From Tsukamurella spumae (GTDB lineage Bacteria; Actinomycetota; Actinomycetes; Mycobacteriales; Mycobacteriaceae), in contig NZ_JAAXOQ010000021.1 in NCBI RefSeq assembly GCF_012396015.1, positions 21,288-85,287 on the forward strand: a DNA stretch of 64,000 bases, written 5' to 3'. The stretch's first letter is position 1; each line of letters begins with the position of its first letter. The notes under the pieces are model-generated. The model saw only the letters and a program-made list of their open reading frames with translations, did not search any database and was not told the origin of the DNA. Shown here one piece after another: positions 24,889-41,491 of this stretch. The position numbers and the translations under genes are program-made.

Positions 24889-25045
24889 CACTACCCTCCC
24901 GATCGCCGCACCCACGGGGCGCGTCGGCATGAGCGCGACGGCCGGTCCACGGTGCGATTTCGATTGACTCTGTGCCCCGTGCAACGCACCCCTGGCCGAC
25001 TTATTCCACAGGCGATGAAATCGCTGGCCGAAGGTCCGCGCGCCA
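24889..25045. other. intergenic region
   Basis: These 157 bp separate the fusion gene from the ABC exporter stop; both genes are leftward. It holds the promoter and ribosome site of the fusion gene and a small GCGAT-3-ATCGC hairpin at about 25012-25024. I see no clear terminator with a T-run and no small gene. Confidence 0.4.
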
Positions 25046-27101: not shown

Positions 27102-27602
27102 TCAGTCGAGGTAGTCGGCGGGGTAGGTCACCTGCTGGAACTCGTCGTTGACGGAGTTCAGCAGGGCGATCCGCTCTGCGGTCATGTCGGGCACGGGCTT
27201 GAACTCGCCGATGGCCGCGGCCTCACCGATCTTGGCGAACATGCGCTCCATCCCGGTCGGCAGCGTCACGCACAGAACGCGGGCGACCGAATCCGACTCG
27301 TTCTTGAAGCAGTGGATGTCGCCGCCGAAGGGGATGTGCACCAGGCCCCCCTTGCCGACCACGGCGTGGCCGGCCTCCGTCTTGTAGGTCAGTTCGCCCT
27401 CGATGACGAAGAAGAACTCCATGAAGTTGGGGTGCGAATGGGGCGTGGGGCCGCCCCCGGGCGGCACGATCATGTCGAACGCCGAGTACATCCCGTTGCT
27501 CTGATCGCCGGAGATCACCACGCGATAGTTGTCGCCCGCGACCGCGTACACCTCGCCGTCGGTCGCCGGGACGATCTTGATGTTGGACTTGCCCTGCGCC
27601 AC
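27102..27602 (-). CDS. cupin-domain protein
   Basis: GTG start at 27602 chosen because GAGAGG lies 8 nt upstream (MAQGKSNIKIVPATDG); a GTG at 27611 is the alternative. 166 aa. The cupin metal motifs are HSHPNFMEFFFVIEGELTYK and, on the second strand set, HIPFGGDIHCFKN. It may be a quercetinase-like dioxygenase, an isomerase or a sensor. It follows the aromatic catabolic genes on the same strand after a ~100 bp gap, so a role in the same pathway is possible but not shown. Confidence 0.75.
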   Translation of the reverse strand: MAQGKSNIKIVPATDGEVYAVAGDNYRVVISGDQSNGMYSAFDMIVPPGGGPTPHSHPNFMEFFFVIEGELTYKTEAGHAVVGKGGLVHIPFGGDIHCFKNESDSVARVLCVTLPTGMERMFAKIGEAAAIGEFKPVPDMTAERIALLNSVNDEFQQVTYPADYLD

Positions 27603-27690
27603 GGAAAGCACCTCTCAGGAGTTCTGATACTTGTACCTTCGCATCCTATGCATAACTGGGGATGGCTTCGGGCATCCCCCGAAACCGCGG

Positions 27691-27710
27691 AGGGGCGCCG
27701 AGGGGCGCCG
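27691..27710. repeat. tandem 10-bp repeat, two copies
   Basis: AGGGGCGCCG is repeated head to tail just after the stop of the aldehyde dehydrogenase gene. A short TTCGGG/CCCGAA hairpin (27667-27683) lies further on in the leftward direction. Together they may weakly terminate or stabilise the message end; no T-run is present. Confidence 0.4.
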
Positions 27711-27714
27711 GCCG

Positions 27715-29154
27715 CTACTGCTCGATCTGCATCACCACGGCCTTGGGCTCGGTGAAGAACTCCCGGCTGAAGTCGCCGCCCTCCCGGCCGATGCCGGAAT
27801 CGCCGGCTCCACCGAACGGAGCCCGCAGATCGCGGATGAAGAAGCAGTTCACCCACACGCTGCCGGCCTTGAGCCGCGCCGCCATACGGTGTGCGCGAGA
27901 AAGATTCTCGGTGAAGAGCATCGCGTTGAGGCCGTACCTGCTGTCGTTCGCCAGGGCCAGCGCCTCCTCCTCCGTGTCGAACGGGATCGCCACGACCAGC
28001 GGGCCGAAGATCTCCTCCCGGGCGTGCCGGGAATCCTGTCCCAGACCGGTCACCACCGTGGGCGCGACGCGCCAGCCGTCGACGAAGCCGCCGGTCTCGA
28101 TGGTTCCGCCCGAGGACTCGACGGTGCTCACGTACTCGGACACCTTGCCGAAGTGCTCCTGCGAGGCGAGCGGACCGATCTCGGTCCGCTCGTCCTGCGG
28201 ATCACCGATCACCATCGCGGATGCGACCTCGGTGAACCGCTTCATGAACGTGTCGAAGATGCCGCGCTGCACGTACAGCCTGGAGCCGGCGACGCACACC
28301 TGACCGGTGTTGGTGAAGATCGCGCGGATCGACCAGCTGACCGCGTTCTCCAATTCTGCGTCGTCGAAGACGATGTTCGCCCCCTTGCCGCCGAGCTCGA
28401 GACTGACCGGCACGAGGTTGCGCGCACCCGCCGCGGCGATGATCCGGCCCGTACCCGACTCGCCCGTGAAGGTGATCCGGTCCACGTGGGGATTCTCGGT
28501 GAGCGCGGCTCCGGCCGAATCCGGCCCGTAGCCGTGCACCACGTTGAACACGCCGGGGGGAATCCCCGCCTCCAGCGCGAGGCGCGCCATGATCGTGGCC
28601 GAGGTCGGAGTGTCCTCCGCAGGCTTGAGGACGACGGTGTTGCCCCACCCCAGGGCGGGCGCGACCTTCCACGACTCCAGCATCATCGGGAAGTTCCACG
28701 GCGCCACCGCGGCCACGACGCCCGCCGGGTCGAACCGGGTGTAGGCGTGGTGGCCGGTATCCATCGGGAGGGTCTCACCCGTGGCGAGCCGCGCGTGGTC
28801 GGCGAAGAAGCGGAAGTTCATCGCGGTGCGGGGCACGTCGCTGTCCCGGGACTGCGTGATGGGCTTGCCCATGTCGTGCGTATCGGCCCGCCCCAGTTCC
28901 TCGGCGTGCTCCTCGATGAGATCCGCGAACCGGTGGATCAGGCGGCCGCGCTCGGTGAAACCCATCCTGGGCCAGGGGCCCTCGTCGAAGGCGCGGCGTG
29001 CCGCCGCGACCGCGCGATCGGCCTCGGCCGCACCGCCCAGCGCGATCTCGGCCCAGGGCTCCTGCGTGTACGGATCGATGGATGTGAAGGTCTCGCCGGA
29101 AGCCGACGGCACCTCCTCGCCGTCGATGACATGACCGAAGAACGGAAGACTCAT
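27715..29154 (-). CDS. aldehyde dehydrogenase, 2-hydroxymuconic-semialdehyde dehydrogenase-like
   Basis: 479 aa ALDH with a complete active site: Asn154 in APWNFP, general base Glu253 in SLELGGKGANIVF and nucleophile Cys287 in TGQVCVAG, plus the NAD loop FTGESGTGR (229-237). It lies in one operon with 4-oxalocrotonate tautomerase, decarboxylase and hydratase. The best call is therefore oxidation of a ring-cleavage semialdehyde to 2-hydroxymuconate-type acid with NAD+. Its ATG overlaps the tautomerase stop. Confidence 0.88.
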   Translation of the reverse strand: MSLPFFGHVIDGEEVPSASGETFTSIDPYTQEPWAEIALGGAAEADRAVAAARRAFDEGPWPRMGFTERGRLIHRFADLIEEHAEELGRADTHDMGKPITQSRDSDVPRTAMNFRFFADHARLATGETLPMDTGHHAYTRFDPAGVVAAVAPWNFPMMLESWKVAPALGWGNTVVLKPAEDTPTSATIMARLALEAGIPPGVFNVVHGYGPDSAGAALTENPHVDRITFTGESGTGRIIAAAGARNLVPVSLELGGKGANIVFDDAELENAVSWSIRAIFTNTGQVCVAGSRLYVQRGIFDTFMKRFTEVASAMVIGDPQDERTEIGPLASQEHFGKVSEYVSTVESSGGTIETGGFVDGWRVAPTVVTGLGQDSRHAREEIFGPLVVAIPFDTEEEALALANDSRYGLNAMLFTENLSRAHRMAARLKAGSVWVNCFFIRDLRAPFGGAGDSGIGREGGDFSREFFTEPKAVVMQIEQ

Positions 29155-29348
29155 GCCCGCTCCTCCCGTTCGGCCAGCGTGACGCCGCCGGCGGACCAGT
29201 GCGTGGACGGCACCTCCCGCACCACCACACGAATCTTCTCGTCCGGAACGCTCAGCGCCGCCTTGACCGCGTCATGGACGGACCGGAGCAGTTCTCGGAT
29301 CACCTCCGGCTCTCGCTTCTGGGCGAGAGTGATCTCCACCAATGGCAT
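29151..29348 (-). CDS. 4-oxalocrotonate tautomerase
   Basis: 65 aa from the ATG at 29348; an upstream in-frame extension is ignored because Pro must be the first mature residue. Mature numbering gives catalytic Pro1, Arg11 and Arg39, all present, and Trp50 where Phe50 is usual. It converts 2-hydroxymuconate to 2-oxo-3-hexenedioate (keto form). Its stop overlaps the ALDH start, and it follows the decarboxylase gene by 32 bp. Confidence 0.9.
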   Translation of the reverse strand: MPLVEITLAQKREPEVIRELLRSVHDAVKAALSVPDEKIRVVVREVPSTHWSAGGVTLAEREERA

Positions 29349-29380
29349 TTCAGGTCCTCTCTGTTGTGCGTTCGAGCGAG

Positions 29381-30169
29381 TCAGCGGCACGCAATGCACA
29401 CGCTGCCGAGATCCGCGAAATGGGCGGCCACCTGATGGCCCGGTTCGGCGTAGACCGCGTCCGTCATGCCTCCGGTGAGCACGATCCAGCCGGCCTCGAG
29501 CGCGATCCCGCGCCGTCCGAGTTCATTGGCGGCCAGCGCCAGCGCCTCCCCCGGGTGCCCTTGCACGGCGGCCCCGGTGGCGGAATCGACGACGTCCCCG
29601 TCGACCTCCAGCAGGCAGCCCTGCAGCGCGAGATCCAGCCCGACCGGCGAGACGCCGGTGGGATTGACCACGAACTTCGCGGACGAGGCGTTGTCGAGGA
29701 TGGTGTCGGTGATCCGGAACCGGAAGTCCTTGTACCGGCTGTCGATCACTTCGGCCCCGGCGTGCACCGAGGCGACGGCGCCCATGGCGCGCGCGGCGGT
29801 GATCCCGGGGCCCATCAGGCGCTCGCCGAGCACGAAGACGATCTCGGGCTCGATCCGCGGGTGGATGAGCTCGTCCACCTGCAGCGGGATCTCCACGCCC
29901 AGCACCATCTCGTCCGTCAGCCAGCCGGTGACCGGCGAGTCGACGCCCATGCGCTGCTGTTTGGCGCGCGAGGTCAGCCCGAGCTTGACGCCGACCATCG
30001 TCTCCCCCGCCTCCAACCGGCGGTTGATCACCAGGTCCTGCACTCGGTACGCGGTGGCGACGTCCAGCTCGGGCCATTCGTCGGAGATCGGCGTCCGGTC
30101 GGTACGACTGACCTCGGCATGACGGATCTCATCAGCGGCCCGCTCGACGGTCCACTCGGATGCACTCAT
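29381..30169 (-). CDS. 4-oxalocrotonate decarboxylase (DmpH/XylI type)
   Basis: 262 aa of the FAH-superfamily hydratase/decarboxylase group. Recognisable parts are VGVKLGLTSRAKQQRMGVDS, HPRIEPEIVFVLG (metal-binding Glu pair), GAEVIDSRYKDFRFRITDTI and LDNASSAKFV. It decarboxylates 2-oxo-3-hexenedioate to 2-hydroxypenta-2,4-dienoate and in known pathways forms a complex with the hydratase, whose gene precedes it with an ATGA overlap. The two neighbours make the decarboxylase call firmer than sequence alone would. Confidence 0.85.
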   Translation of the reverse strand: MSASEWTVERAADEIRHAEVSRTDRTPISDEWPELDVATAYRVQDLVINRRLEAGETMVGVKLGLTSRAKQQRMGVDSPVTGWLTDEMVLGVEIPLQVDELIHPRIEPEIVFVLGERLMGPGITAARAMGAVASVHAGAEVIDSRYKDFRFRITDTILDNASSAKFVVNPTGVSPVGLDLALQGCLLEVDGDVVDSATGAAVQGHPGEALALAANELGRRGIALEAGWIVLTGGMTDAVYAEPGHQVAAHFADLGSVCIACR

Positions 30170-30963
30170 TCGCTCTCCTCACCTACGAATCGAACTGTGG
30201 CCGAGCCGATCCGGTCGAAGGTCGCCACGGCCACATCACCCGGTCCCACCGCGTGCGCCGCGGTGACGGAGCCCGGGAGGATCACCTCCCCGGCGCGCAG
30301 CGTCACCCCGTGCTCGCCCATCACGTTCGCCAGCCACACCAGGGCGTTGACCGGCGATCCGAGGACCGCGCCGCCGGCGCCGGTGTCCACGAGAGCGCCG
30401 CCCACCCGTAGTGTTCCGCCGATTCCCCGCAGATCGACCTGCTCGACGGGGACGCGCTGCGAGCCCAGGACCACGCCGCCGGACGAGGCGTTGTCCGCCA
30501 CCGTGTCGACGATCCCGATCCGCCAGTCGGCGATGCGTGAGTCGATGAGCTCCAGTGCGGGGGTCACCCAGGCGATCGCGCCGAGCGCCTCCGCGGGGGT
30601 GATTCCGGGTCCGCTCAGGTCACTCCCCAGGATCAGGGCGATCTCCGCCTCCACCCGCGGGGCGATGAAGGTGCCCGCGGGCACCCGGCCTCCGTCCGGA
30701 TAGAACATCGTGTTCAGCAGGTGACCGAAATCGGGCCGGTCCACGCCGAGTTGGCGCTGCATCGCCCGCGAACTGAGGCCCACCTTGTGGCCGCGGACGG
30801 CGGCACCGTCGTCGATCCAGGACTGGACCTGCAGCTGCTGGATCCGGTACGCGTCGTCGATCGTCAGCTCCGGGAACCGCTCGGCGATCGGCGTGATCGC
30901 CCGGCGCGTGCGATACGCCTCGGCGAGCTCCGCCGCACAGTCGGAGATGATCTGCGTGGTCAT
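30166..30963 (-). CDS. 2-hydroxypenta-2,4-dienoate hydratase (2-keto-4-pentenoate hydratase)
   Basis: Start at the ATG 30963, with GAGGAGGG 8 nt upstream; 265 aa. The motifs parallel the decarboxylase: GHKVGLSSRAMQRQLGVDRP, APRVEAEIALILGSDL, TPALELIDSRIADWRIGIVD and ADNASSGGVVLG. It adds water to 2-hydroxypentadienoate to give 4-hydroxy-2-oxovalerate. It is the first gene of the leftward operon, directly downstream of one of the GntR operator motifs. No aldolase or acylating acetaldehyde dehydrogenase for the next steps lies in the window. Confidence 0.85.
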   Translation of the reverse strand: MTTQIISDCAAELAEAYRTRRAITPIAERFPELTIDDAYRIQQLQVQSWIDDGAAVRGHKVGLSSRAMQRQLGVDRPDFGHLLNTMFYPDGGRVPAGTFIAPRVEAEIALILGSDLSGPGITPAEALGAIAWVTPALELIDSRIADWRIGIVDTVADNASSGGVVLGSQRVPVEQVDLRGIGGTLRVGGALVDTGAGGAVLGSPVNALVWLANVMGEHGVTLRAGEVILPGSVTAAHAVGPGDVAVATFDRIGSATVRFVGEESE

Positions 30964-31010
30964 TACCGCACCCTCCTCGGTCGACATCAGGGAGATCGAC
31001 CCGTCCCCAA

Positions 31011-31073
31011 AAGTGTGTACAGTTTTGTCGGTCAAGTCAAGCGTTGACATCCGGGCGAAACTGTATGCACTAT
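31011..31073. promoter_or_regulatory. divergent promoters with two GntR-type operators
   Basis: GTGTGTACAGTT (31013-31024) and AACTGTATGCAC (31059-31070, the inverse of GTGCATACAGTT) flank the centre. Rightward: -35 TTGACA (31044-31049) and -10 CACTAT (31068-31073), 18 bp apart, with the second operator across the spacer and -10. Leftward: -35 TTGACT and -10 CACACT, 17 bp apart, overlap the first operator. A repressor bound to both would block both operons. The same 12-mer recurs at 34925. Confidence 0.7.
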
Positions 31074-31140
31074 GAAGCGAGGGGATGCACGGCATCCCTG
31101 TCAGTGCCCGACGAACAATCAGCCGACCCGGAGGAACGCC

Positions 31141-32040
31141 ATGTGGACCCTAGTGACGTACCAGGCCGAATCCACGCCGCCCGGCTCGCCGGCCACGAGC
31201 GTCGCCTTCGCCGATGACGACGGCACGTACTGGAGCACCCCCGAGCTGTCCGGCTACGCCGATGTCGGCGCGGTCGCCCGGGACTGGCCGACACTCGGTC
31301 CCGTCCTGCGCGGGGTCGATCCGCGCTCCGGAACCAGGGTCGCAGCGGGCCGGATCGTGGCCCCGTTCCCCGCGCCTGGCAAGCTGATCTGCGCCGGCGC
31401 CAACTACACCGATCACCTCCGTGAGATGGGGATCGACTCGGTGCCGCCCACCATGGAACCGTTCTTCTTCCTCCTGCCGAGCACGTCGATCAGTGCGCCG
31501 GACGACACCGTCGACATCCCCTCCGATCCCGCCGCGCGAGTGGACTGGGAGGCCGAGCTCGGAGTGGTGATCGGCGCCCGCGCCAAGGAGGTCACGGTCG
31601 AGGAGGCCCTGGACCGGGTGGCCGGGTACACCGTGGTCAACGACATATCCTCGCGCGGCAGGCACCGCCGCCCGGATCCGCTGGCCCCGCCCTTCGCCTT
31701 CGACTGGCTCGCCTCCAAGGGCGCCGACGGATTCACTCCCATCGGCCCGGGACTGCGGCCGGCGTGGTTCATCGAGGACCCGCGGAATCTGTCGATCAAG
31801 CTGTGGCGCAACGATGTCAACGAGCAGGACGGAAACACCTCCGACATGATCTTCGATGTCGCGCAGCTCATCAGCGCCGCCAGCCACCGCATGACACTCG
31901 AGCCGGGGGACGTGATCGCCACCGGCACGCCCGCGGGGGTGGGCGCGGGCAAGGAGAGCTTCCTGGCCGACGGCGATGTCCTGCGGATCGAGATCGCCGG
32001 CGTCGGTTCGCTCCGGAACACCATGGCGGGAAAGGCGTGA
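31141..32040 (+). CDS. fumarylacetoacetate hydrolase (FAH) family protein
   Basis: 299 aa from an ATG with GGAGGAA upstream. The C-terminal FAH fold has KLICAGANYTDHLREMG, the metal acids in DWEAELGVVIGARAKEV, the VNDISSRGRH segment and ATGTPAGVGAGK. The family contains hydrolases, decarboxylases and isomerases of ring-cleavage products. First gene of the rightward operon, followed by the OYE-like reductase and an extradiol dioxygenase, so it probably acts on the ring-fission product. Exact reaction unknown. Confidence 0.85.
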   Translation: MWTLVTYQAESTPPGSPATSVAFADDDGTYWSTPELSGYADVGAVARDWPTLGPVLRGVDPRSGTRVAAGRIVAPFPAPGKLICAGANYTDHLREMGIDSVPPTMEPFFFLLPSTSISAPDDTVDIPSDPAARVDWEAELGVVIGARAKEVTVEEALDRVAGYTVVNDISSRGRHRRPDPLAPPFAFDWLASKGADGFTPIGPGLRPAWFIEDPRNLSIKLWRNDVNEQDGNTSDMIFDVAQLISAASHRMTLEPGDVIATGTPAGVGAGKESFLADGDVLRIEIAGVGSLRNTMAGKA

Positions 32041-32045
32041 CCAGC

Positions 32046-33209
32046 ATGAGCTCCGCGATCGAGACCCTGTTCGAACCGCTGCCCCTGGGTCGGGCCACCG
32101 CCCGCAACCGCCTGTCCATGGCGCCGATGTCCGTGGGATACGGCACTCCGGACGGGTTCATCTCGCCGAAGCAGGTCGAGCACTACGCGCGTCGCGCGGC
32201 CGGCGGCGTCGGCACCGTGTTCACCGAGAACTTCGCGGTGAGCCTCGGCGGCAGGCAGATGCCGCTGCAGCCGATCGTCTCCGGACCCGAGCACCTCCCC
32301 GGACTCACGGCGCTCGCGGATGCGGTGCACCGGCACGGCGCCCTCGCCATGGTGCAGCTCGTGCACTCGGGTCGCTACGGCGGTCCCTGGGAGGAGTACG
32401 AGGCACGACGCCGGCTCTCGCCGTCGGCGGTCGCCTTCGAACTGCTCCCCGGACGCGAGGTCATGCCCGACGAGATCACCCGGGCCGAGATCGATGAAAC
32501 GATCGCCGAATTCGTCAACTCCGCCAGGCTCTGCGAGCAGGCCGGGCTCGACGGTGTCGACATCCACGCCGCGCAGGGATTCCTGCTGTCCGGCTTCCTG
32601 TCGCCCCGGCACAACCTCCGCACCGACGAGTACGGCGGCGACTTCGACGGTCGCACCCGGCTGGTCCGCGAGGTGGTCCGGGCCGTCCGCGAGGCCACCT
32701 CGAAGGACTTCGTGGTCGGCGTGCACCTGATGTCGGACGAGCTGATCGACGGTGGCTGGTCGATCGCCGAGGCGGCGCGACTGGCACCGCTGCTCGCCGA
32801 TGACGGTGCCGAGTTCCTGTTCGCGATCCCGTCGACCTTCGAGACCTTGCGTCTGCCCGAGAACCTCGGACTACTGGGGCGCCCCGGGTACTCGCTCGGC
32901 GACACCGCGGCGCTGAGTGCGGCCACCGACATCCCGGTGATCGCGAACGGCGCCCTCTCCGATCCCGACCTGGCCGCACGCACCGTCACCGAGGGAAAGG
33001 CAGCCGGAATCGCCCTCGCACGAGCGCTCTTCGTCGATCCGGACTGGCCGAACAAGATGGAGCAGGATCGACGCGCGAGCGTCCGCAGCTGCCCCTGTCA
33101 TCCGCCGTTGTGCCTGCAGACACAGCTGACCGGGGCCCAGTGCGATCACTGGCCCCCCGAGGCCCGCGAACGCGGTTACCTCGGATTCGAGCAAGGAGTT
33201 CCATCATGA
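32046..33209 (+). CDS. OYE-like NADH:flavin oxidoreductase
   Basis: 387 aa from the ATG at 32046; a GTG at 32037 overlapping the preceding stop is a possible start. FMN barrel with MAPMSVGYGTPDGFISPKQV, VQLVHSGRYGG and the active-site run HAAQGFLLSGFLSPRHNLRT. A Cys-rich tail (CPCHPPLC, then GAQC) stands where 2,4-dienoyl-CoA reductase relatives bind a 4Fe-4S cluster, but the spacing differs and the downstream FAD/NAD domain is missing. It probably reduces an activated double bond in the pathway. Cluster binding is uncertain. Confidence 0.85.
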   Translation: MSSAIETLFEPLPLGRATARNRLSMAPMSVGYGTPDGFISPKQVEHYARRAAGGVGTVFTENFAVSLGGRQMPLQPIVSGPEHLPGLTALADAVHRHGALAMVQLVHSGRYGGPWEEYEARRRLSPSAVAFELLPGREVMPDEITRAEIDETIAEFVNSARLCEQAGLDGVDIHAAQGFLLSGFLSPRHNLRTDEYGGDFDGRTRLVREVVRAVREATSKDFVVGVHLMSDELIDGGWSIAEAARLAPLLADDGAEFLFAIPSTFETLRLPENLGLLGRPGYSLGDTAALSAATDIPVIANGALSDPDLAARTVTEGKAAGIALARALFVDPDWPNKMEQDRRASVRSCPCHPPLCLQTQLTGAQCDHWPPEARERGYLGFEQGVPS

Positions 33210-34078
33210 TCACCATCCCCGACATCGCCTATGTCCGCTCCGGCGTCGAAGACCTCGACGGGGCAGTGGATTTCGCCACCCGCATCGTGGGCCTGACGCA
33301 GGTCCCCACCGATGAACCCGGCGTCGCGCACCTGCGCGCCGACGATCGCGTCCACTGCCTGACCTTCGTGCAGGGTCCCTCCGGGGCGATCGCGACCGGC
33401 CTGCGCGTGGGTGGCCTCGACGAGCTCGCGGACGCCGAGACGCAGCTGGAGAAGCTGGGGATCACCGTGACCCGTGGCGACGAGGCCGGTGCCGCGTCGC
33501 GCGGATGCGGCGCCTTCATCGGCTTCGACGATCCGTGGGGCAACCGGGTCGAACTGGTCGCGCGCCAGTTCGTGACGGCCGATCTGCTCTCGCCGGGCCG
33601 CAACGCCGGGATCACCGAGTTCGGGCACTCGTGCTTCGACGCCCCGGACGTGATCGCCGCCGGGAAGTTCTGGACCACCGTGTTCAGCGCCAAGGTCTCG
33701 GACTGGGTGGGCGACAAGGCCTGCCTGCTGCGCGTGGATCCCATGCACCACAAGCTCGCCGTGTTCTACGGCGAGCGGCCGGCCCTGTGCCACGTGAACT
33801 TCCAGGTGGCCAGCCACGACGACCTGTTCCGGAACTGGCACTTCCTGGTGGACAACGGCGTGGAGATCATCCAGGGTCCCGGCCGGCACCCCACGTCCGG
33901 ATCGGCGTTCGTCTACTTCCGCGGACCCGAGAACCTGACCTACGAGTACGCGGTGGGCACTCGCCTGATCCACGACGACGACGCCTGGACCCCGCGCGTC
34001 TTCGACGCCTCCCTGGAATCGTCGATCGACATGTGGCGCGGACCGATCGCACCCACTGTGCGCCAGATGCAGCTCTGA
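33206..34078 (+). CDS. type I extradiol ring-cleavage dioxygenase (first copy)
   Basis: 290 aa, two vicinal-oxygen-chelate modules. In the catalytic C-terminal half the Fe(II) ligands are His141 (FGHSCFD), His196 (LCHVNFQV) and Glu247 (TYEYAVG), with the spacing of BphC-type enzymes. It cleaves a catechol-like ring next to the hydroxyls. Its ATG overlaps the OYE stop, so the two are translated together. Substrate not determinable by eye; the linked tautomerase/decarboxylase branch implies an aldehyde-type fission product. Confidence 0.88.
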   Translation: MITIPDIAYVRSGVEDLDGAVDFATRIVGLTQVPTDEPGVAHLRADDRVHCLTFVQGPSGAIATGLRVGGLDELADAETQLEKLGITVTRGDEAGAASRGCGAFIGFDDPWGNRVELVARQFVTADLLSPGRNAGITEFGHSCFDAPDVIAAGKFWTTVFSAKVSDWVGDKACLLRVDPMHHKLAVFYGERPALCHVNFQVASHDDLFRNWHFLVDNGVEIIQGPGRHPTSGSAFVYFRGPENLTYEYAVGTRLIHDDDAWTPRVFDASLESSIDMWRGPIAPTVRQMQL

Positions 34079-34079
34079 C

Positions 34080-34101
34080 CTCGGGGCGTCCTCGGGGCGT
34101 C
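34080..34101. repeat. tandem 11-bp repeat, two copies
   Basis: CTCGGGGCGTC occurs twice head to tail in the 24 bp between the convergent dioxygenase and GntR genes. It may be a simple duplication. No hairpin terminator is visible in this short gap. Confidence 0.45.
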
Positions 34102-34102
34102 C

Positions 34103-34864
34103 CTAGGCCTCCACGACCGGGTGCGGCGCGACCACGATGCTGAGGGCCTTGCGTACGCGCAGCGGATCGAAGTCCACGGCACAGTGGGAAAGCACCTGCA
34201 GCGCAGTGCGCTCGAGGTGGTGCGCCATCAGGGACACCGCCTCGGCGCCGTCGTGCCCGGCGACGGCCTCCAGGATCGCCAGATGCTCGAGGTCGCCCGC
34301 CTCGGCCCACACCCGCGGGTCGAACTCCTGCGCGAGGCGGATGTAGCGCGTACTGCGGTCGGCGAGGGAGCGGAGCTCACCGTCGAGGGGCTCGCCCACG
34401 GCGTGGCCCAGGATCTGATGGAACTGCGCGTGCGCGACGAACCACGATTCGGTGTCGTTCTTCTTCGCCGCACTGCGCATCTCGGACAGCTTCACCTTCG
34501 CGCGGCGGGAATCGGCGGCGGTGAACACCTCCGCCGTCACCGACACCGCCAGGCACTCGAGCATGATCCGCGAGCCGTAGATCGAGTCCAGTACCTCCGG
34601 ATCGAAGCCGACCACGCGCATGCGCTGGTTCGGCTCGAACTCGACGAGGCCCTCCTCCTGCAGCATCCGCAGCGCCTCGCGCACGGGTGTCCTGCTCACG
34701 CCGAGCTGTTCGCCGAGCCCCACCTGGGAGAGCTTGGTTCCGGGCGGCAGCGTGCCATCCATGATGCATTCGCGCAGGTACGCGTGGATGGGCCCGATCG
34801 ACTGGCGTTGCCCGGCGATCTGCAAGCGCTCCAACCCATCCACGCGCGAGGTCCGTGTTCCCAT
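34103..34864 (-). CDS. GntR-family regulator with FCD domain
   Basis: 253 aa from the ATG at 34864 (MGTRTSRVDGLERLQIAGQR); the open frame extends further up through the operators and is not used. Winged helix at ~25-90 (GTKLSQVGLGEQLGVSRTPV REALRMLQEEGLVEF), then an all-helical FCD sensor (~100-235) with FHQILGHAV and SLMAHHLERT giving metal-site histidines. Sits between the two rightward catabolic operons and reads leftward. The repeated GTGCATACAGTT motif at this and the other divergent promoter makes it the likely repressor of the whole aromatic cluster. Confidence 0.88.
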   Translation of the reverse strand: MGTRTSRVDGLERLQIAGQRQSIGPIHAYLRECIMDGTLPPGTKLSQVGLGEQLGVSRTPVREALRMLQEEGLVEFEPNQRMRVVGFDPEVLDSIYGSRIMLECLAVSVTAEVFTAADSRRAKVKLSEMRSAAKKNDTESWFVAHAQFHQILGHAVGEPLDGELRSLADRSTRYIRLAQEFDPRVWAEAGDLEHLAILEAVAGHDGAEAVSLMAHHLERTALQVLSHCAVDFDPLRVRKALSIVVAPHPVVEA

Positions 34865-34894
34865 GCGCACATTGTGCAACAGACTGCGAGCAAA

Positions 34895-34936
34895 CCTGTA
34901 TACAGGCTTGACGAACTCCGAAAAGTGCATACAGTT
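34895..34936. promoter_or_regulatory. GntR autoregulatory and operon-2 promoter region
   Basis: CCTGTATACAGG (34895-34906) is a perfect 12-bp palindrome upstream of the gntR start. GTGCATACAGTT (34925-34936) is identical to the motif at 31059-31070 read on the other strand. Rightward promoter: -35 TTGACG (34908-34913), 16 bp, -10 TACAGT (34930-34935), the latter inside the operator. Repressor binding here would block the DUF1857 operon and gntR itself. Confidence 0.7.
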
Positions 34937-34965
34937 AGAGGCCAGAGAGTGAGGAGCACCACACG

Positions 34966-35430
34966 ATGATCTTCGTCAGCCACGCAATCCCGGTGAACGA
35001 GCCCGGATCGATCCGTCTCAGCCGCGAGGACGTCTGGGCCGGCCTCGTACGGAAGGCCAACAACGCCCTGCCCTTCGTGCCCGCCATGAGCGACTGCACC
35101 GTGACGGGCCGGCTCAGCGAGACGGTCTTCGACCGCGACATCGTGATCCGCGGTGACGCCTACACCGAGCGGATCACCCTCGAGGAGCCACACCGTGTGG
35201 TGTTCACCCGCACGTCGGGCCCGATCCTGGGCGTGATCGCCAACGAGATCATCGGCGACGGGGACACCATGGAGCTGCGGTTCAGCTTCGCGCTGGTGAT
35301 CAGCGGCGTCGAAGGCGGCTCGCCCCGGGAGAAGGAGTTCGCGGACGGGATGACCGTGGACTACCTCAGCGCGGTGAAGGCCACGCTCACCGCCATTCGC
35401 AAAGTCGCCTCCGGCGAAACCCCTTCGTAA
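34966..35430 (+). CDS. DUF1857/AtaL-like SRPBCC protein
   Basis: 154 aa beginning MIFVSHAIPVNEPGSIRLSR with EDVWAGLVRKANNALPFVP, the pattern of the DUF1857 (AtaL-like) START/SRPBCC family. These small helix-grip proteins bind hydrophobic ligands; their enzymatic role is unclear. First gene of the second rightward operon, with GTGAGGAG upstream and 30 bp downstream of the operator. It may bind a substrate or intermediate of the pathway. Confidence 0.75.
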   Translation: MIFVSHAIPVNEPGSIRLSREDVWAGLVRKANNALPFVPAMSDCTVTGRLSETVFDRDIVIRGDAYTERITLEEPHRVVFTRTSGPILGVIANEIIGDGDTMELRFSFALVISGVEGGSPREKEFADGMTVDYLSAVKATLTAIRKVASGETPS

Positions 35431-35463
35431 ACAAGTAATCACACAGGATCGCGAGGACCCGAA

Positions 35464-35853
35464 ATGACCGCACCCGATTGGGTCACCACGACCTACGGCA
35501 TCGTCGACGCCGAGGACATGGAGAACCTGCTGCCGCTCTTCACCCCCGGTGCCGAGTTGCGCTTCGGCAACAATCCGGCCGCCATCGGGCACGACGCGAT
35601 CCGCGGCATGCTCGGCGAGTTCTGGAGCTCGATCGGCGGCCTGCGCCACGAGTTCGTCAACGTCGTCGGGGACGGCCCGACCTCCATCGAGGCGATCTGC
35701 CACTACACCACGCGGGCCGGGACACCGGTGCCGCTGCCGGTGGTGACTCAGATCGACCGGGACGGCGCCGGACTGATCACCTCGATGCGGGTCTACATCG
35801 ATTCTGCGCCCCTGTTCGCGCAGATCGCGTCCGAGGCCGACGCCTCGTCATGA
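35464..35853 (+). CDS. NTF2/SnoaL-like small protein (first copy)
   Basis: 129 aa cone-shaped NTF2-like fold: an N-terminal helix pair (TTYGIVDAEDMENLLPLFTP) then strands with RFGNNPAAIGHDAIRGMLGE and HYTTRAGTPVPLPVVTQIDR. SnoaL-type proteins act as isomerases, cyclases or hydratases, often through Asp/His pairs. The stop overlaps the aldolase ATG, showing tight coupling. A second NTF2-like gene follows in the same operon. Confidence 0.75.
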   Translation: MTAPDWVTTTYGIVDAEDMENLLPLFTPGAELRFGNNPAAIGHDAIRGMLGEFWSSIGGLRHEFVNVVGDGPTSIEAICHYTTRAGTPVPLPVVTQIDRDGAGLITSMRVYIDSAPLFAQIASEADASS

Positions 35854-36551
35854 CTCCAGCCGACCTCGTCGCCGAGACGGTGGCCGCCGCGCGGGTCGTC
35901 GCGGCGCTGGGCATCGTCGGCCCCTTCGGGCACGTGTCCGCGCGGATCGACGAGAAGCGGATCATCATCACCCCGGCGGCGCCACTCGCCTCCGCCACCC
36001 CGGACGAGCTGGTCACCGTCGAACTCGATGCCTCCGAGCTCCCGCCCCGCGCCCCGGGGGAGGCGTGGATCCACCTGGGCGTGTATCACTCCCGCGCGGA
36101 CGTCGGCGGCATCTGCCGGGCGATTCCGGAGTCCTCCTTCGCCGCCGGCGCGGTGTACGACGCCCTGCGACCCGTCCACGGCCAGGCCGCGCTGCTCGGC
36201 CCGACGGTGCCCGTCCATCCGACCGCGCGCCTGGTGCGCGACCGGGAGGCGGGCGTCGCCGTCGCCGGCACGCTCGATCAGTCCGACGCGGTGGTGCTGC
36301 GCGGCAACGGCGCCGTCACCGTCGGCGCCTCGCCCGGGCTCGCCGTTGCCCGGATGCACCTGCTGGACACCGCGTGCCGAGTCCGACTCGCTGCCGGGAG
36401 GGACGCGCACGAGCTGGACGCGGACGAGATAGCCGCCTGGCGCGCCGCCGGACCGCCGCTGCTGCAGCGGCTGTGGAACTACCTCAACGAATACTCCGCC
36501 GCGCCCGCGGCGATCGATCGAGCACACCAACCCGAGAGGACCCCGCAATGA
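35850..36551 (+). CDS. class II aldolase/adducin-like protein
   Basis: 233 aa from the ATG that overlaps the previous stop. The N-terminal VGPFGHVSARIDEKRIIITP is characteristic of class II aldolase/adducin proteins. The metal-binding HxH stretch expected near residues 80-95 is poorly preserved: the region reads WIHLGVYHSRADVGGICRAI, where family members often show H-A-H. It may be a C-C lyase for a hydroxy-keto acid or a non-aldolase relative. Its position before the second dioxygenase suggests it takes the place of the missing pathway aldolase; unproven. Confidence 0.75.
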   Translation: MTPADLVAETVAAARVVAALGIVGPFGHVSARIDEKRIIITPAAPLASATPDELVTVELDASELPPRAPGEAWIHLGVYHSRADVGGICRAIPESSFAAGAVYDALRPVHGQAALLGPTVPVHPTARLVRDREAGVAVAGTLDQSDAVVLRGNGAVTVGASPGLAVARMHLLDTACRVRLAAGRDAHELDADEIAAWRAAGPPLLQRLWNYLNEYSAAPAAIDRAHQPERTPQ

Positions 36552-37456: not shown

Positions 37457-37486
37457 CCAACCCCCTTCCTCCGATCGGAGACCGAC

Positions 37487-38026
37487 ATGACCGACACCGC
37501 CTATCCCCCCTTGGAATCGATGGTGCGCGAGCTGTGGGACCGCCAGCAGATCGCCGATGTGATGCTCTCCTTCGGGCGGGCACTCGACACCCACGACTGG
37601 TCCCGGTACGCGACCACTCTGACCGATCCGTTCGATGTCGACTTCTACGACCTCACCGGACTGCCCGCGGGCCGGACGACGCCCGAGCTGTGGGCCCGGT
37701 TCGCGGAGAACGCCCTCGGACCGCTGGTGGTGCTGCACCGGTACACCAACTTCCACATCGACCTGGCGCCCGATGGCGACCCCGACCACGCGCACGCCAT
37801 CGTCTACCACGTCTCACGCCACCGGAAGCCGAACAAGTCCGGCGACGACCACTACACGCAGTACGGCTGGTACGACAACGACCTCGTCCGGACGCCCGAG
37901 GGCTGGCGGATCAACCGCCTCAAGCACCAGTTCCAGTGGGCGGACGGAAATCCCAACCTGATCGACGGGAGCGACCCGGACTTCCAGAAGATGGCGGGAG
38001 AGATCTTCGGCACGGACCCGCAATGA
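37487..38026 (+). CDS. NTF2/SnoaL-like protein (second copy, ring-hydroxylase beta-like fold)
   Basis: 179 aa: MTDTAYPPLESMVRELWDRQ, QIADVMLSFGRALDTHDWSR and a C-terminal GWYDNDLVRTPEGWRINRLK. The fold matches SnoaL-like proteins that include scytalone-dehydratase and ring-hydroxylating-dioxygenase beta relatives. No alpha subunit is in the window, so an independent enzyme (dehydratase or isomerase) is likelier. The stop overlaps the hydrolase ATG. Confidence 0.78.
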   Translation: MTDTAYPPLESMVRELWDRQQIADVMLSFGRALDTHDWSRYATTLTDPFDVDFYDLTGLPAGRTTPELWARFAENALGPLVVLHRYTNFHIDLAPDGDPDHAHAIVYHVSRHRKPNKSGDDHYTQYGWYDNDLVRTPEGWRINRLKHQFQWADGNPNLIDGSDPDFQKMAGEIFGTDPQ

Positions 38027-38889
38027 GCGGGGACGCGTCCGCGCGCACCCACCACACCACCGTGGTGAACGGGATCCGCCTGCACTACGCCATGGCCGGC
38101 GCCGGCGAACCGGTCGTGCTCCTGCACGGGTGGCCGCAGAGCAGCAGGGAGTGGCACCGCGTGATGGCGGATCTGTCCGACACCTACCTGCTGATCGCAC
38201 CGGACATGCGCGGCATGGGCTACTCGGGCAAGAACGCCACCGCCTACGACACCGACGCGGTGGCCTCCGACGTGCACGAGCTGATCACGGGCATGGGGAT
38301 CGAATCGGTCAGGATCGCCGGACACGACTGGGGTGGCGCTGTCGCCTACAGCTACGCCGCGAACTACCGCGACGAGGTGAGCGCGCTGGCGGTACTGGAG
38401 ATGGCGCCGCCCGGGTTCGGCATCATGGAGGCCGCGATGACTCCCCAGCCGGGCGGGAATTTCCTCTGGCACATGGCCTTCCAGAGCGTCCCGGCGATCC
38501 CCGATCTGCTGCTCGCCGGCCACGAGGAGGAGTACCTGCGCTTCTTCTACAAGGAGTACGCGTACGCGCCCGACTCGGTGCCCGAGGAGCACATCGAGGC
38601 CTACGTGCGCGATATGACCGCTCCCGGCGCCCTGCACGCCGGGCTCGGCTACTACCGCGACTTCTTCACCAGCGCCGAGCAGAACATCGCGCACGCGCGC
38701 ACGCCGCTGACGATCCCGGTGACGGCGTGGGGCGGCTCGCACTGCCTGCGCGACGCGCCGAAGGCCTGCATGGATCAAGCCGCGGTATCCGTCACGGGCG
38801 GCATCATCGACGACTGCGGGCACTGGGTGTGCGACGAGGCCCCGCACACCGTCGCGAAGATCCTCCGGGAGTTCTTCGCGACGGTGTAG
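38023..38889 (+). CDS. alpha/beta hydrolase, epoxide-hydrolase/dehalogenase type
   Basis: 288 aa. Oxyanion motif HGWPQ (35-39), nucleophile elbow GHDWGG with Asp102, and the catalytic His in DDCGHWVCDE near 268. An Asp nucleophile followed by Trp is the mark of epoxide hydrolases and haloalkane dehalogenases. It is not the Ser of MhpC/BphD C-C hydrolases, so this is not the usual meta-cleavage product hydrolase. Last gene of the second rightward operon. Substrate unknown. Confidence 0.88.
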   Translation: MSGDASARTHHTTVVNGIRLHYAMAGAGEPVVLLHGWPQSSREWHRVMADLSDTYLLIAPDMRGMGYSGKNATAYDTDAVASDVHELITGMGIESVRIAGHDWGGAVAYSYAANYRDEVSALAVLEMAPPGFGIMEAAMTPQPGGNFLWHMAFQSVPAIPDLLLAGHEEEYLRFFYKEYAYAPDSVPEEHIEAYVRDMTAPGALHAGLGYYRDFFTSAEQNIAHARTPLTIPVTAWGGSHCLRDAPKACMDQAAVSVTGGIIDDCGHWVCDEAPHTVAKILREFFATV

Positions 38890-38920
38890 CCGGGTCCGGC
38901 AGCGGGAGCGGCGTTCCCGC

Positions 38921-39328
38921 CTACCTGTGGATGGTCTTGCGCGGCTTGAGGGAGTGCGCGGGGCCGGTGGAATCCGGGGTGAGGTTCACGCTCCACGAGA
39001 CGTCCGGGGTGATGCGCATGTTCAGCGTCCCCGACCCGGCGGGCGCCTCGACCAGCTCGACGGTGCCGTAGATGCGGATGTAGCGCGGCGTCCAGCCGCC
39101 CTGCGTGATCAGATCGTCGAAGAGCAGTGCCACCTTGTTGTTTCCACTCTGGATGTTGCGGGTGCGGCGGGTCCGCGTGGGGTCGAATCCGCCGATCCAG
39201 AAGTCCCGGCCGTCGAACTCGTACCCGGTGACCACCAGGTCCGGCTGGCCGTCCGAATCGACCGTGGCGACGCGCACCAGCGGTTGGGTGCGCATGTAGT
39301 CCAGTTCTTCAGGGGCGAACGATGCCAC
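38921..39328 (-). CDS. PPOX-class F420/flavin-binding protein
   Basis: GTG start at 39328 with GGAGG 7 nt upstream gives 135 aa (MASFAPEELDYMRTQPLVRV); an ATG 45 bases further up lacks a ribosome site. Split-barrel fold: ATVDSDGQPDLVVTGYEFDG, TRRTRNIQSGNNKVALLFDD, RYIRIYGTVELVE. Relatives bind F420 or FMN and reduce various compounds. It is convergent with the hydrolase and leftward with the SDR. Confidence 0.8.
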   Translation of the reverse strand: MASFAPEELDYMRTQPLVRVATVDSDGQPDLVVTGYEFDGRDFWIGGFDPTRTRRTRNIQSGNNKVALLFDDLITQGGWTPRYIRIYGTVELVEAPAGSGTLNMRITPDVSWSVNLTPDSTGPAHSLKPRKTIHR

Positions 39329-39400
39329 GATGTGACCTCCGGCGAGTCGGGATGGAAGATTCTGCGATTCCACAGGATAGTCGGCGCGGGCGCGACGCGA

Positions 39401-40168
39401 TCACAATTGCCCACCGTCCACGCGCAGGGTGCTGCCGGTGACGTACGAGGCGTCGGGCGAGACCAGGAAGGCCACGGCGGCGGCGATCTCGTCGACCGAC
39501 GCCATGCGGCCCAGAGCCGCGAAGGAGCGCATGAACTCCTCCGTACCGATCTTGCCGCGGAGCGCGGGATGCACGTACTCCGCCCCCACCTCGGCGGCCA
39601 TGTCCGTCGACGTGCCACCCGGGGCGATCGCATTGATGCGGATCCCCAGATCCGCGAACTCGAGCGCGAGGTGCTGCACGATGGCCTCGACCGCGGCCTT
39701 ACTGGCCGCGTACAGGGTGTGCTGATAGACGGGGGTACGCGCGCTGGTCGACGAGGTCAGCACGATCGCCCCGCCGCGCGAGAGCTGCGTGCCCGCCGCT
39801 TGGGCCACGAGGAACTGGGCGCGGGCGTTCGTGCGGAAGACCGCGTCGAAGTCGTCCGCGGTCACCTCGTGGAACGGACCGAAGTGCTCGATACCGGCGT
39901 TGCTGCACACGATGTCGAGGTCCGCGACCTCGCGAGCCTCCGCGAACAGCCGCGTGATCTCCTCGGGTCGGCTGACGTCCGCCTGGATGACGAAGGCCTT
40001 GCGGCCCAGGCGCTCCACCTCCTGCGCGACGCTCTCCGCCGCCTCTCGGCCGCTGCGGTAGTTGACGATCACATCCGCTCCGTCGGCCGCGAGCCGCAGG
40101 GCGATCGCCCTCCCGATTCCGCGCCCGCCGCCGGTCACCAGTGCAGTCTTGCCATCCACGCTCATCAT
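39401..40168 (-). CDS. short-chain dehydrogenase/reductase
   Basis: 255 aa classical SDR. Cofactor loop TGGGRGIG (~12-19), NAG at 90-92 in CSNAGIEHFG, catalytic Ser in LTSSTSA and the YAASK pair (Tyr/Lys). The Arg after strand 2 (NYRSGREAAES) favours NADPH. Located between the MFS transporter and the PPOX gene on the same strand. Likely an alcohol/ketone step of the aromatic region; substrate unknown. Confidence 0.88.
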   Translation of the reverse strand: MMSVDGKTALVTGGGRGIGRAIALRLAADGADVIVNYRSGREAAESVAQEVERLGRKAFVIQADVSRPEEITRLFAEAREVADLDIVCSNAGIEHFGPFHEVTADDFDAVFRTNARAQFLVAQAAGTQLSRGGAIVLTSSTSARTPVYQHTLYAASKAAVEAIVQHLALEFADLGIRINAIAPGGTSTDMAAEVGAEYVHPALRGKIGTEEFMRSFAALGRMASVDEIAAAVAFLVSPDASYVTGSTLRVDGGQL

Positions 40169-40231
40169 TCGTCCTTCGTCCGAGTCAGATTCTCTTCGCC
40201 GACTACAACGCTCGTTCGCGCAACTAATTCC

Positions 40232-41491
40232 CTATGCCGCGATGGCCACCGGCGCCGAGCTCCGGGCGTTGCGCAGGATGACGAGCAACAGTGCGGCGGC
40301 GACCAGGGCGCTGGTTCCGAAGAAGATGAAGTTGCCGCTGGCACCGGCCCCGCCGGAGAGCAACCATCCGCCCATCTGCGGCGCCATCACGGCGCCGATC
40401 CGTCCGATGCCCAGCGTCCAGCCGAGTGCGGTCCCGCGCAGGGCCTCCGGGTACCGCGAGGCCACGGCCGCGATCACCAGGCACTGCGTGCCGTGCGTGC
40501 CGATGCCCGCGATCACGATGATGAGGTAGATGACGCCGGTCGGCGGCTCGGTCAGTAGCAGGAGCAGTCCGATCCCGGCGAGGCCGGCGGTGACCACCCC
40601 GGTCCGGATCGGCCCGAACCGCACACCCGCCCATGCGGTCAGGAAGGAGCCTGCCACCGCGCCGAGATTCAGTGCGAGGGCGAAGGTCAACGCGCTCCCG
40701 AGATCGGCACCACCGTCCTGCATCAGCTTGGGCAGCCAGGTGCCCAAGCCGTACCAGGCCAGGAGGGTCGCAACGGTGACGAGGGCGAACAGGATCGACG
40801 CCGTGCGGTACCGGGGACTGAGAACGGCGCGGAAGCCCTCCCCCACCTCGGATCCGGCCCCCGCGCGAGAACCGCGGACGGCGCGCTCGTCCTTGGGCAG
40901 GAAGCGCAGGCCCAGGGGCAGGAGCACGACGAGCGCCACCAGCGCGAACCAGAACATCGGCCGCCAGCCCCACGCCGGGATCACCTGCCGGCCCAGCAGG
41001 GCCGCCACGACGCCGCCGATGGGCGCTCCGGACATCATCAGCGTCGCGACGGCGGCCCGGACGCGGTCCGGAACCAGCTCCGCGGCGAGGGTGTTCGCCG
41101 TCGGAACGAGGCCGCCGAGGCCGAGCCCGGCGATCAGCCGCGTGATGCCGAACATGACCGGGCCGGTGGCCAGCGCGCAGAACACGGTGGCCACGGAGAA
41201 CAGCGCTACGCAGCCGAGCACGGCACGCCGGCGGCCGATGGCGTCCGCGAGGCGTCCGGCGACCAGGGCGCCGAACATCATGCCCACGATGCACAGGCTG
41301 CCGAGCGTGCCGGCCGTGGACGAGCTGATCCCCCATTCGTCCTGCAGGCTGGAGATCACGTTGCCGTAGATGACGATGTCGTAGCCGTCGAAGACGACCA
41401 TGAGCCAGCACACGGACAGTGCGATGGCGGTAACCGGTGTGAGCCACCGGAATCCTGTGTCGGTGGCGGCGCTGAGGCGAGTATCGATCAT
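40232..41491 (-). CDS. MFS aromatic-acid:H+ symporter (AAHS family)
   Basis: 419 aa with 12 predicted membrane helices. The AAHS signature DGYDIVIYG lies in helix 1 (VVFDGYDIVIYGNVISSL), and the loop motif GRLADAIGRRRAVLG is between helices 2 and 3. PcaK- and BenK-type members import benzoates and related acids. Downstream on the same strand come the SDR and PPOX genes. It is the probable uptake system for the compound degraded by this region. Confidence 0.87.
   Translation of the reverse strand: MIDTRLSAATDTGFRWLTPVTAIALSVCWLMVVFDGYDIVIYGNVISSLQDEWGISSSTAGTLGSLCIVGMMFGALVAGRLADAIGRRRAVLGCVALFSVATVFCALATGPVMFGITRLIAGLGLGGLVPTANTLAAELVPDRVRAAVATLMMSGAPIGGVVAALLGRQVIPAWGWRPMFWFALVALVVLLPLGLRFLPKDERAVRGSRAGAGSEVGEGFRAVLSPRYRTASILFALVTVATLLAWYGLGTWLPKLMQDGGADLGSALTFALALNLGAVAGSFLTAWAGVRFGPIRTGVVTAGLAGIGLLLLLTEPPTGVIYLIIVIAGIGTHGTQCLVIAAVASRYPEALRGTALGWTLGIGRIGAVMAPQMGGWLLSGGAGASGNFIFFGTSALVAAALLLVILRNARSSAPVAIAA

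Follow-up and report, generated by a model that had tools for sequence, protein, structure and literature searches.

What aromatic compound could be degraded by a gene cluster that encodes two different extradiol dioxygenases together with lower enzymes of a meta-cleavage pathway? The cluster in question lies between positions 27102 and 41491 of a 64,000-nucleotide stretch of the Tsukamurella spumae genome (the window; C14:21288-85287 of the 4.46-Mb genome). An ORF listing and family profile searches located all genes named by a first-pass annotation of this DNA at their positions and confirmed their families. We propose that two ring-cleavage modules, EDO2-FAH and EDO1-ald2, which share predicted operators, act in series: a two-ring hydroxyquinone would be converted to 2,3-dihydroxybenzoate, which would enter the 2,3-dihydroxybenzoate meta-cleavage (dhb) route. 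We regard this as quite possible, although still short of likely. The gene set, the shared sites, the conserved pairings of genes and the conserved active-site residues are established here. The features, in window coordinates, are as follows.

27715..29154, minus strand: aldehyde dehydrogenase (ALDH), 2-hydroxymuconic semialdehyde/HpaE-like, predicted 2-hydroxymuconate semialdehyde (HMS) dehydrogenase; NCBIfam HpaE 528.6 and HMSD 519.8 bits, both below the curated cut-offs
29151..29348, minus strand: 4-oxalocrotonate tautomerase-like protein, 65 aa, Pro after Met; Pfam Tautomerase 48 bits
29381..30169, minus strand: 4-oxalocrotonate decarboxylase-like protein (4-OD; DmpH family); TIGR03218 237.3 bits, below the cut-off
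30166..30963, minus strand: 2-oxopent-4-enoate hydratase-like protein (DmpE family); TIGR03220 268.2 bits, below the cut-off
31010..31025, plus strand: predicted GntR operator 1, left divergent promoter; pattern scan
31058..31073, minus strand: predicted GntR operator 2, left divergent promoter; pattern scan
31141..32040, plus strand: FAH-family protein, predicted acylpyruvate hydrolase; Pfam FAA_hydrolase 221.1 bits
32046..33209, plus strand: OYE-family flavoprotein, predicted quinone reductase, 387 aa; HAAQGFL replaces HxxHGYL, C-terminal Cys tetrad
33206..34078, plus strand: EDO1, type I extradiol dioxygenase, predicted 2,3-dihydroxybenzoate 3,4-dioxygenase (DhbA-like), from its family, names of relatives and loci
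34103..34930, minus strand: GntR/FCD regulator; Pfam GntR and FCD
34893..34908, minus strand: predicted GntR operator 3, right divergent promoter; pattern scan
34922..34937, plus strand: predicted GntR operator 4, right divergent promoter; pattern scan
34966..35430, plus strand: AtaL (PF08982, the DUF1857 protein of the first-pass annotation), predicted PR10/START-like fold; Pfam AtaL 92.5 bits
35464..35853, plus strand: SnoaL_2/NTF2-like protein a (NTF2a); Pfam
35850..36551, plus strand: class II aldolase-fold protein (ald2), predicted 3-carboxy-2-hydroxymuconate semialdehyde (CHMS) decarboxylase, DhbB/CmtD-like, from families, relatives and residues
36548..37456, plus strand: EDO2, an HpaD-like type I extradiol dioxygenase predicted to make the first ring cleavage, from family and predicted fold
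37487..38026, plus strand: SnoaL_4/NTF2-like protein b (NTF2b); Pfam
38023..38889, plus strand: epoxide-hydrolase-like alpha/beta hydrolase, Asp-type (GHDWGG); best PDB match 7ac0, soluble epoxide hydrolase, E 3e-63
38921-39373, minus strand: PPOX-class protein, convergent with the cluster and without operator; TIGR04023 108.2 bits against a cut-off of 85.6

Predicted operators and distribution of the two modules

The genes are read outward from two divergent promoters. The left operon on the minus strand has the order hydratase, 4-OD, tautomerase, ALDH, and a cupin gene (27102-27611) lies behind ALDH at its end, which could be reached by read-through. On the right side, FAH-OYE-EDO1 on the plus strand is followed by the GntR gene on the minus strand and then by AtaL-NTF2a-ald2-EDO2-NTF2b-alpha/beta hydrolase on the plus strand. 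Both divergent promoters carry a common palindrome-like 16-mer with the pattern ANNSTGYRTACAGKTW. This pattern matched four sites in the window against none in 100 shuffles of the window, and the same four without a fifth in the whole genome, where the reversed control matched none; it counts against the weight of these numbers that the pattern was derived from the window's own sites, with the related locus L006 also in view, so that the matches in the window and genome arise by construction. The classical GntR motif T.GT..AC.A had given merely scattered matches, and the shared 16-mer was spotted by eye in that output. In its longest reading, the GntR gene has a start that is overlapped by operators, so that the true start may be internal, at 34864. 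Both modules are thus predicted to be under one GntR/FCD regulator through the operators common to them. The single regulator postulated in the first-pass annotation can be kept as a prediction for 27715-38889, which bounds the regulon on the available evidence, and not for the PPOX, SDR and MFS genes, which lie on the minus strand to the right of the cluster with no operator in front of them. The MFS protein is of the aromatic-acid type (270 bits, below the subfamily cut-off of 418.6).

Parts of the gene set were found in other actinobacteria. The tally below covers 24 actinobacterial loci (L006-L029), all found via EDO1; of the 29 found, five (L030-L034) did not exceed 29% identity and were not counted. 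Two of the 24 loci (L008 and L024) are shorter than 5 kb and cannot show absences, and the codon-usage caller used for the loci missed or shortened some genes, so that the OYE of L006 was taken from its tblastn position. Ten of the 24 loci had a second dioxygenase, which was either EDO2 or a member of another subfamily (F17). The remaining 14 had none, and their only other match, at any identity, was EDO1 itself. FAH (at least 40% identity) was present in nine of the ten loci with a second dioxygenase, the tenth being a 4.6-kb contig, and in none of the 14 without it (Fisher p 7.7e-6). The p values given here serve as a guide only, since the loci are mutually related and the thresholds were set after the identities had been seen, which counts against them. 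The GntR regulator (at least 40% identity) showed a distribution of 10/10 against 1/14, with other GntR/FCD regulators existing among the 14 loci, for example in L017. AtaL (7/10 against 1/14) and NTF2a (5/10 against 0/14) followed. The exact operator was found in six of the ten loci with a second dioxygenase (L006, L007, L008, L009, L013 and L029), in none of the 14 without it, and in L035, a locus on a Streptomyces plasmid; apart from L006, these occurrences are, like the lack of a fifth genomic site, independent of the way in which the pattern was constructed. On this comparison, module 2 (EDO2 and FAH, often with AtaL, NTF2 and OYE) is an add-on to module 1 (EDO1, ald2, dehydrogenase, tautomerase, decarboxylase and hydratase).

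A synteny search, which the first-pass annotation had suggested, found the gene order from ALDH through EDO2 kept in Jongsikchunia kroppenstedtii (L006), which belongs to another genus of the same family and whose EDO1 is 85% identical. The order was not kept for NTF2b, which had merely a 29% relative elsewhere in L006, nor for the alpha/beta hydrolase, MFS and cupin genes. Since the order is conserved in Jongsikchunia and other actinobacteria hold portions of the set, the gene set is more than a chance assembly. The cluster is rare: EDO1 had matches in 133 of 151 genomes of the family at E<=0.001, and among the matches listed only its own genome (100%) and one other (85%) were above 35% identity, the remaining matches being distant relatives, while a class-wide search with EDO2 at E<=1e-60 returned its own genome alone among 394.

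The shared predicted operators and the second dioxygenase in 10 of the 24 loci support two successive ring cleavages, an idea already put forward in the first-pass annotation. The same data bear on a different arrangement, in which two parallel one-ring pathways would belong to one regulon without feeding each other, EDO1, ald2 and ALDH serving 2,3-dihydroxybenzoate and EDO2 with FAH serving an unrelated ring of the hydroxyquinol or homoprotocatechuate type. EDO2 is indeed HpaD-like in family and predicted fold, and FAH adjoins a VOC dioxygenase in the examined parts of plasmids from Rhizobium, Priestia and Agrobacterium, where no dhb genes are present. However, a lasting linkage of two unrelated one-ring pathways is not expected, the common operators precede both modules, and ald2 was kept in all ten loci with a second dioxygenase; EDO1 is present there by construction, since the loci were found through it. 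We consider the parallel arrangement unlikely. The plasmid regions (L004, L005 and L035-L040) were hand-picked from match lists. FAH lies beside the second dioxygenase in four of five further plasmid regions (Rhizobium, Priestia, Agrobacterium and Pararhizobium) and five genes away in Chelativorans, where it should be considered that one match row for these five regions was already named FAH.

Module 1 and the 2,3-dihydroxybenzoate pathway

By its families, module 1 matches the known meta-cleavage pathway of 2,3-dihydroxybenzoate. According to the excerpt of PMC6362003, dhbB of P. reinekei MT1 is a class II aldolase that decarboxylates CHMS, and the later dhb genes encode HMS dehydrogenase, tautomerase, decarboxylase, hydratase, aldolase and acetaldehyde dehydrogenase. 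The first four of these families are found within the cluster, and ALDH was the sole match to itself in its own genome at E<=1e-120. The final two are encoded side by side on contig 79 (C79:2903-4836), with 471.9 and 454.8 bits, both above the curated cut-offs.

Among the listed relatives of EDO1, 62 of 120 were named by their source as 2,3-dihydroxy-p-cumate/2,3-dihydroxybenzoate 3,4-dioxygenase. The first-pass annotation was right in distinguishing two extradiol dioxygenases, and neither looks dead, because the His/His/Glu candidates for metal ligands were invariant in both (17 aligned rows for EDO1 and 13 for EDO2). The relatives of ald2 were named as HCOMODA/2-hydroxy-3-carboxy-muconic semialdehyde decarboxylase (26 of 120 listed) or as ribulose-5-phosphate 4-epimerase/fuculose-1-phosphate aldolase (14 of 120 listed). 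Class II aldolases of the fuculose type bind their metal by three His residues in the motifs H-x-H and N-H-G. Neither motif occurred in any of the 22 compared members of the ald2 subfamily. In the alignment, ald2 has R-A-I and G-N-G at these positions, where 2z7b has H-T-H and R-H-G. The aldolase label that the first-pass annotation had attached to ald2 is misleading, since both motifs are absent from the subfamily, and ald2 is probably not an aldolase.

EDO1 and ald2 occurred together in 21 of the 24 loci. A hydrolase was present in six loci (L008, L009, L016, L020, L028 and L029) and was of the HsaD/BphD type in both that were tested (L016 and L029). Hydrolytic cleavage by an enzyme of this type is the other known fate of HMS. 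On the strength of the dhb match, the names of the relatives and the hydrolase in some loci, EDO1 and ald2 are read as forming HMS from 2,3-dihydroxybenzoate.

The 2,3-dihydroxybenzoate could conceivably be derived from phthalate, as in the opa pathway. EDO1 relatives with about 41% identity accompany genes for ring-hydroxylating dioxygenases on the Caballeronia and Pseudosulfitobacter plasmids that were examined. However, profile searches of the window detected no ring-hydroxylating (Rieske) oxygenase, in agreement with the first-pass annotation, and a phthalate pathway would leave EDO2 and FAH idle. A phthalate-type origin is therefore extremely unlikely.

Module 2 and its candidate substrate

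The predicted structure of EDO2 has the two-domain extradiol fold, with 3b59 and homoprotocatechuate 2,3-dioxygenase as its nearest matches (mean pLDDT 74.4, low at the C-terminal end). A homoprotocatechuate pathway was rejected because EDO2 and FAH score far below the HpaD and HpaG cut-offs, and a steroid role of the HsaC/HsaD kind was also considered and rejected. When extradiol cleavage takes place beside a third ring hydroxyl, the product is a 2,4-dioxo acid. FAH proteins that hydrolyse acylpyruvates act on substrates of this type, and H-x-x-E is the motif of acylpyruvases. In the compared homologues of FAH the His was found in 14 of 14 and the complete H-x-x-E in 13 of 14. This chemistry suggests that the ring opened by EDO2 bears a third hydroxyl and that FAH splits the resulting acylpyruvate to 2,3-dihydroxybenzoate. 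The absence of a C-C hydrolase stated in the first-pass annotation is true of the serine type, in that none was seen above the HsaD or BphD cut-offs, and does not extend to FAH, which belongs to a family of hydrolases of C-C bonds and has H-x-x-E.

If FAH releases 2,3-dihydroxybenzoate, the second ring can be a fused one with a hydroxyl beside the cleaved bond, as in 1,2,4,8-tetrahydroxynaphthalene, the reduced form of 3-hydroxyjuglone. The route would then proceed as follows. The OYE-family flavoprotein would reduce a 2-hydroxy-1,4-naphthoquinone having a hydroxyl beside the scissile bond (3-hydroxyjuglone as the model) to 1,2,4,8-tetrahydroxynaphthalene. EDO2 would cut beside the 1,2-diol and, since the ring bears a third hydroxyl, would form an acylpyruvate, 4-(2,3-dihydroxyphenyl)-2,4-dioxobutanoate, which FAH would hydrolyse to pyruvate and 2,3-dihydroxybenzoate. 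The latter would be opened by EDO1 to CHMS and decarboxylated by ald2 to HMS. ALDH, the tautomerase, the decarboxylase and the hydratase would process HMS further, and the aldolase and the acylating aldehyde dehydrogenase encoded elsewhere in the genome would complete the route. A hydroxynaphthoquinone such as 3-hydroxyjuglone is thus the substrate that appears to fit best, and it would require neither a ring-hydroxylating oxygenase nor a serine C-C hydrolase. The more specific proposal, that this is the first gene set mineralizing juglone-type naphthoquinones, by an OYE turned quinone reductase, EDO2, an acylpyruvase and the dhb pathway under one set of GntR operators, we consider rather unlikely as it stands.

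All seven cluster copies of OYE have H-x-x-QGFL, in contrast to H-x-x-HGYL in the five solved OYEs that were compared. The Tyr of HGYL is the proton donor in the reduction of enones by OYEs, and its loss should be tolerable for an enzyme that reduces quinones. The copies share a C-terminal Cys tetrad, C-x-C-x4-C-x9-C (7/7), possibly a metal or Fe-S site, and the window's protein of 387 aa lacks the second flavin domain that FadH/BaiCD-type proteins have. A gene for an azoreductase-family flavoprotein adjoins the Jongsikchunia cluster (FMN-dependent NADH-azoreductase 84 bits against a cut-off of 188, Flavodoxin_2 142.8 bits).

Alternatively, the regulon might serve another bicyclic or side-chain substrate, such as a hydroxyxanthone, a chromone or another 2,3-dihydroxybenzoyl compound, from which EDO2 and FAH would still yield 2,3-dihydroxybenzoate, and OYE would reduce an enone instead of a quinone. 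The pairing of FAH with the second dioxygenase and the dhb module are indeed independent of the identity of the substrate, and three loci (L009, L013 and L029) have a beta-hydroxyacid dehydrogenase in the place of OYE. The missing Tyr in all seven copies argues against enone reduction, however, and no enzyme of the window that could hydroxylate the ring of a xanthone to a catechol was seen. We judge such a substrate to be improbable, to the same degree as the parallel arrangement above.

Flavonoids were considered as well, since EDO2 might cleave the hydroxylated A ring as in the fde and ifc pathways. IfcB and FdeC are described in the excerpt of PMC11069340 as glyoxalase-fold dioxygenases clustered with hydrolases and cupins. 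The group A flavin monooxygenase that initiates these pathways was not seen between 27102 and 41491, and daidzein leaves a 4-hydroxyphenyl rather than a 2,3-dihydroxybenzoyl group, so that the dhb module would be left unexplained; a pathway of this kind is very unlikely.

In the naphthoquinone route, AtaL and the NTF2-like proteins may serve as binders or as helpers of the cyclase/dehydratase type for bicyclic intermediates. AtaL is predicted to have a ligand-binding fold of the PR10/START type (AlphaFold, mean pLDDT 89.2), with 2ffs as its top PDB match and the ZhuI aromatase/cyclase lower in the list.

Several observations weigh against the serial route or against its substrate. No juglone hydroxylase or 3-monooxygenase was recognized in the window, where no reference sequence of that enzyme was compared, and the hydroxynaphthoquinone would therefore have to arrive pre-hydroxylated or be made elsewhere. 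OYE was found in five of the 24 loci, four of the ten with a second dioxygenase and one of the 14 without it, a difference that is not significant (p 0.12). The beta-hydroxyacid dehydrogenase (F27) found instead of OYE in L009, L013 and L029 is left unexplained by the quinone reading. Distant relatives of FAH below the threshold occur in two of the 14 loci that lack a second dioxygenase (L023, 32%; L028, 38%), and in L011, L012, L014 and L015 a GntR homologue (44-46%) is present without an exact operator. The predicted DhbA-like assignment of EDO1 was made from its family, the source names of its relatives and the loci, and the lower-pathway enzymes of the cluster all score below the NCBIfam equivalog cut-offs. 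Three of the 24 loci (L016, L020 and L026) have EDO1 without ald2, and two of these three have a hydrolase and resemble a plain alkylcatechol meta pathway. The plasmid locus L035 (Streptomyces sp. NBC_01454) carries module 2 and the lower branch without EDO1; some 5.6 kb away from that branch are genes for a dioxygenase of the LigB type and for a class II aldolase fused to TetR.

F27, whose family was checked for L029, is 3-hydroxyisobutyrate-dehydrogenase-like, and its gene precedes FAH in L009, L013 and L029; a YCII-domain protein (F26) is encoded in L013 and L029. The annotated class II aldolase of L035 (25459-26856, 465 aa) has TetR_N and TetR_C_21 in front of the aldolase domain, which represents either a regulator-enzyme fusion or an annotation spanning two genes.

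Relation to described pathways

The first-pass annotation knew of no standard pathway with this gene set. About half of the set does match the dhb pathway, and what appears new is the combination: the lower half matches a known pathway, and the half with EDO2, FAH, OYE, AtaL and NTF2 has, as far as was searched, no described counterpart. The literature search, which covered titles and the beginnings of abstracts and left most subscription journals outside its scope, found no genes for the catabolism of juglone or lawsone and no description of this gene set.

The dhb pathway and the opa pathway of Pseudomonas sp. PTH10, as excerpted from PMC6362003, resemble module 1 in having an EDO1-type dioxygenase and a DhbB-like CHMS decarboxylase, followed by the enzymes from HMS dehydrogenase through acetaldehyde dehydrogenase. 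Unlike in dhb, the cluster here joins the EDO2, FAH, OYE, AtaL and NTF2 genes in the predicted regulon and has the aldolase and acetaldehyde dehydrogenase on another contig; in the same excerpt, the opa decarboxylase is assigned to the metallo-dependent hydrolase superfamily instead of the class II aldolase-fold type. The families of EDO1 and ald2 are source-named for p-cumate degradation (cmt). In contrast to that pathway, no hydrolase above the HsaD/BphD cut-offs and no ring-hydroxylating oxygenase were seen here, and a dehydrogenase branch is present instead.

A chemical parallel is the degradation of lawsone and juglone by Pseudomonas, with a proposed reduction of the hydroxyquinone, fission beside the diol, an acylpyruvate and removal of the side chain to a hydroxybenzoate. 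For lawsone, the excerpt of PMC5533781 gives tentative steps based on metabolites, through 1,2,4-trihydroxynaphthalene and 4-hydroxy-4-(2-hydroxyphenyl)-2-oxobut-3-enoate to salicylate. Unlike the route proposed here, the lawsone route ends in salicylate and catechol. A juglone 3-monooxygenase is mentioned in the excerpt of PMC7924839, which cites the earlier juglone group. The ifc and fde clusters share with module 2 a VOC dioxygenase that acts on a pre-hydroxylated ring, with hydrolases alongside; they differ in their start by the flavin monooxygenase, and the excerpt of PMC11069340 shows no dhb module there.

With the route proposed here, an unexplained gene list becomes a short route that can be tested. 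P. putida J1 reportedly degrades juglone via 3-hydroxyjuglone to 2,3-dihydroxybenzoate. If the route is correct, it would provide genes for the degradation of naphthoquinones from plants and fungi, such as the juglone of walnut, a process described from metabolites but, in the literature covered, without genes. It would also explain how a bicyclic aromatic compound can be degraded without a Rieske oxygenase or a serine C-C hydrolase. The AtaL family and an unusual OYE subfamily would, in addition, be placed in the context of a substrate.

Outside the cluster, a 784-aa frame on the minus strand (22630-24984) encodes both a luciferase-like (LLM) domain and an oxidoreductase domain of the FAD_binding_4/BBE kind, a fusion that looks unusual.

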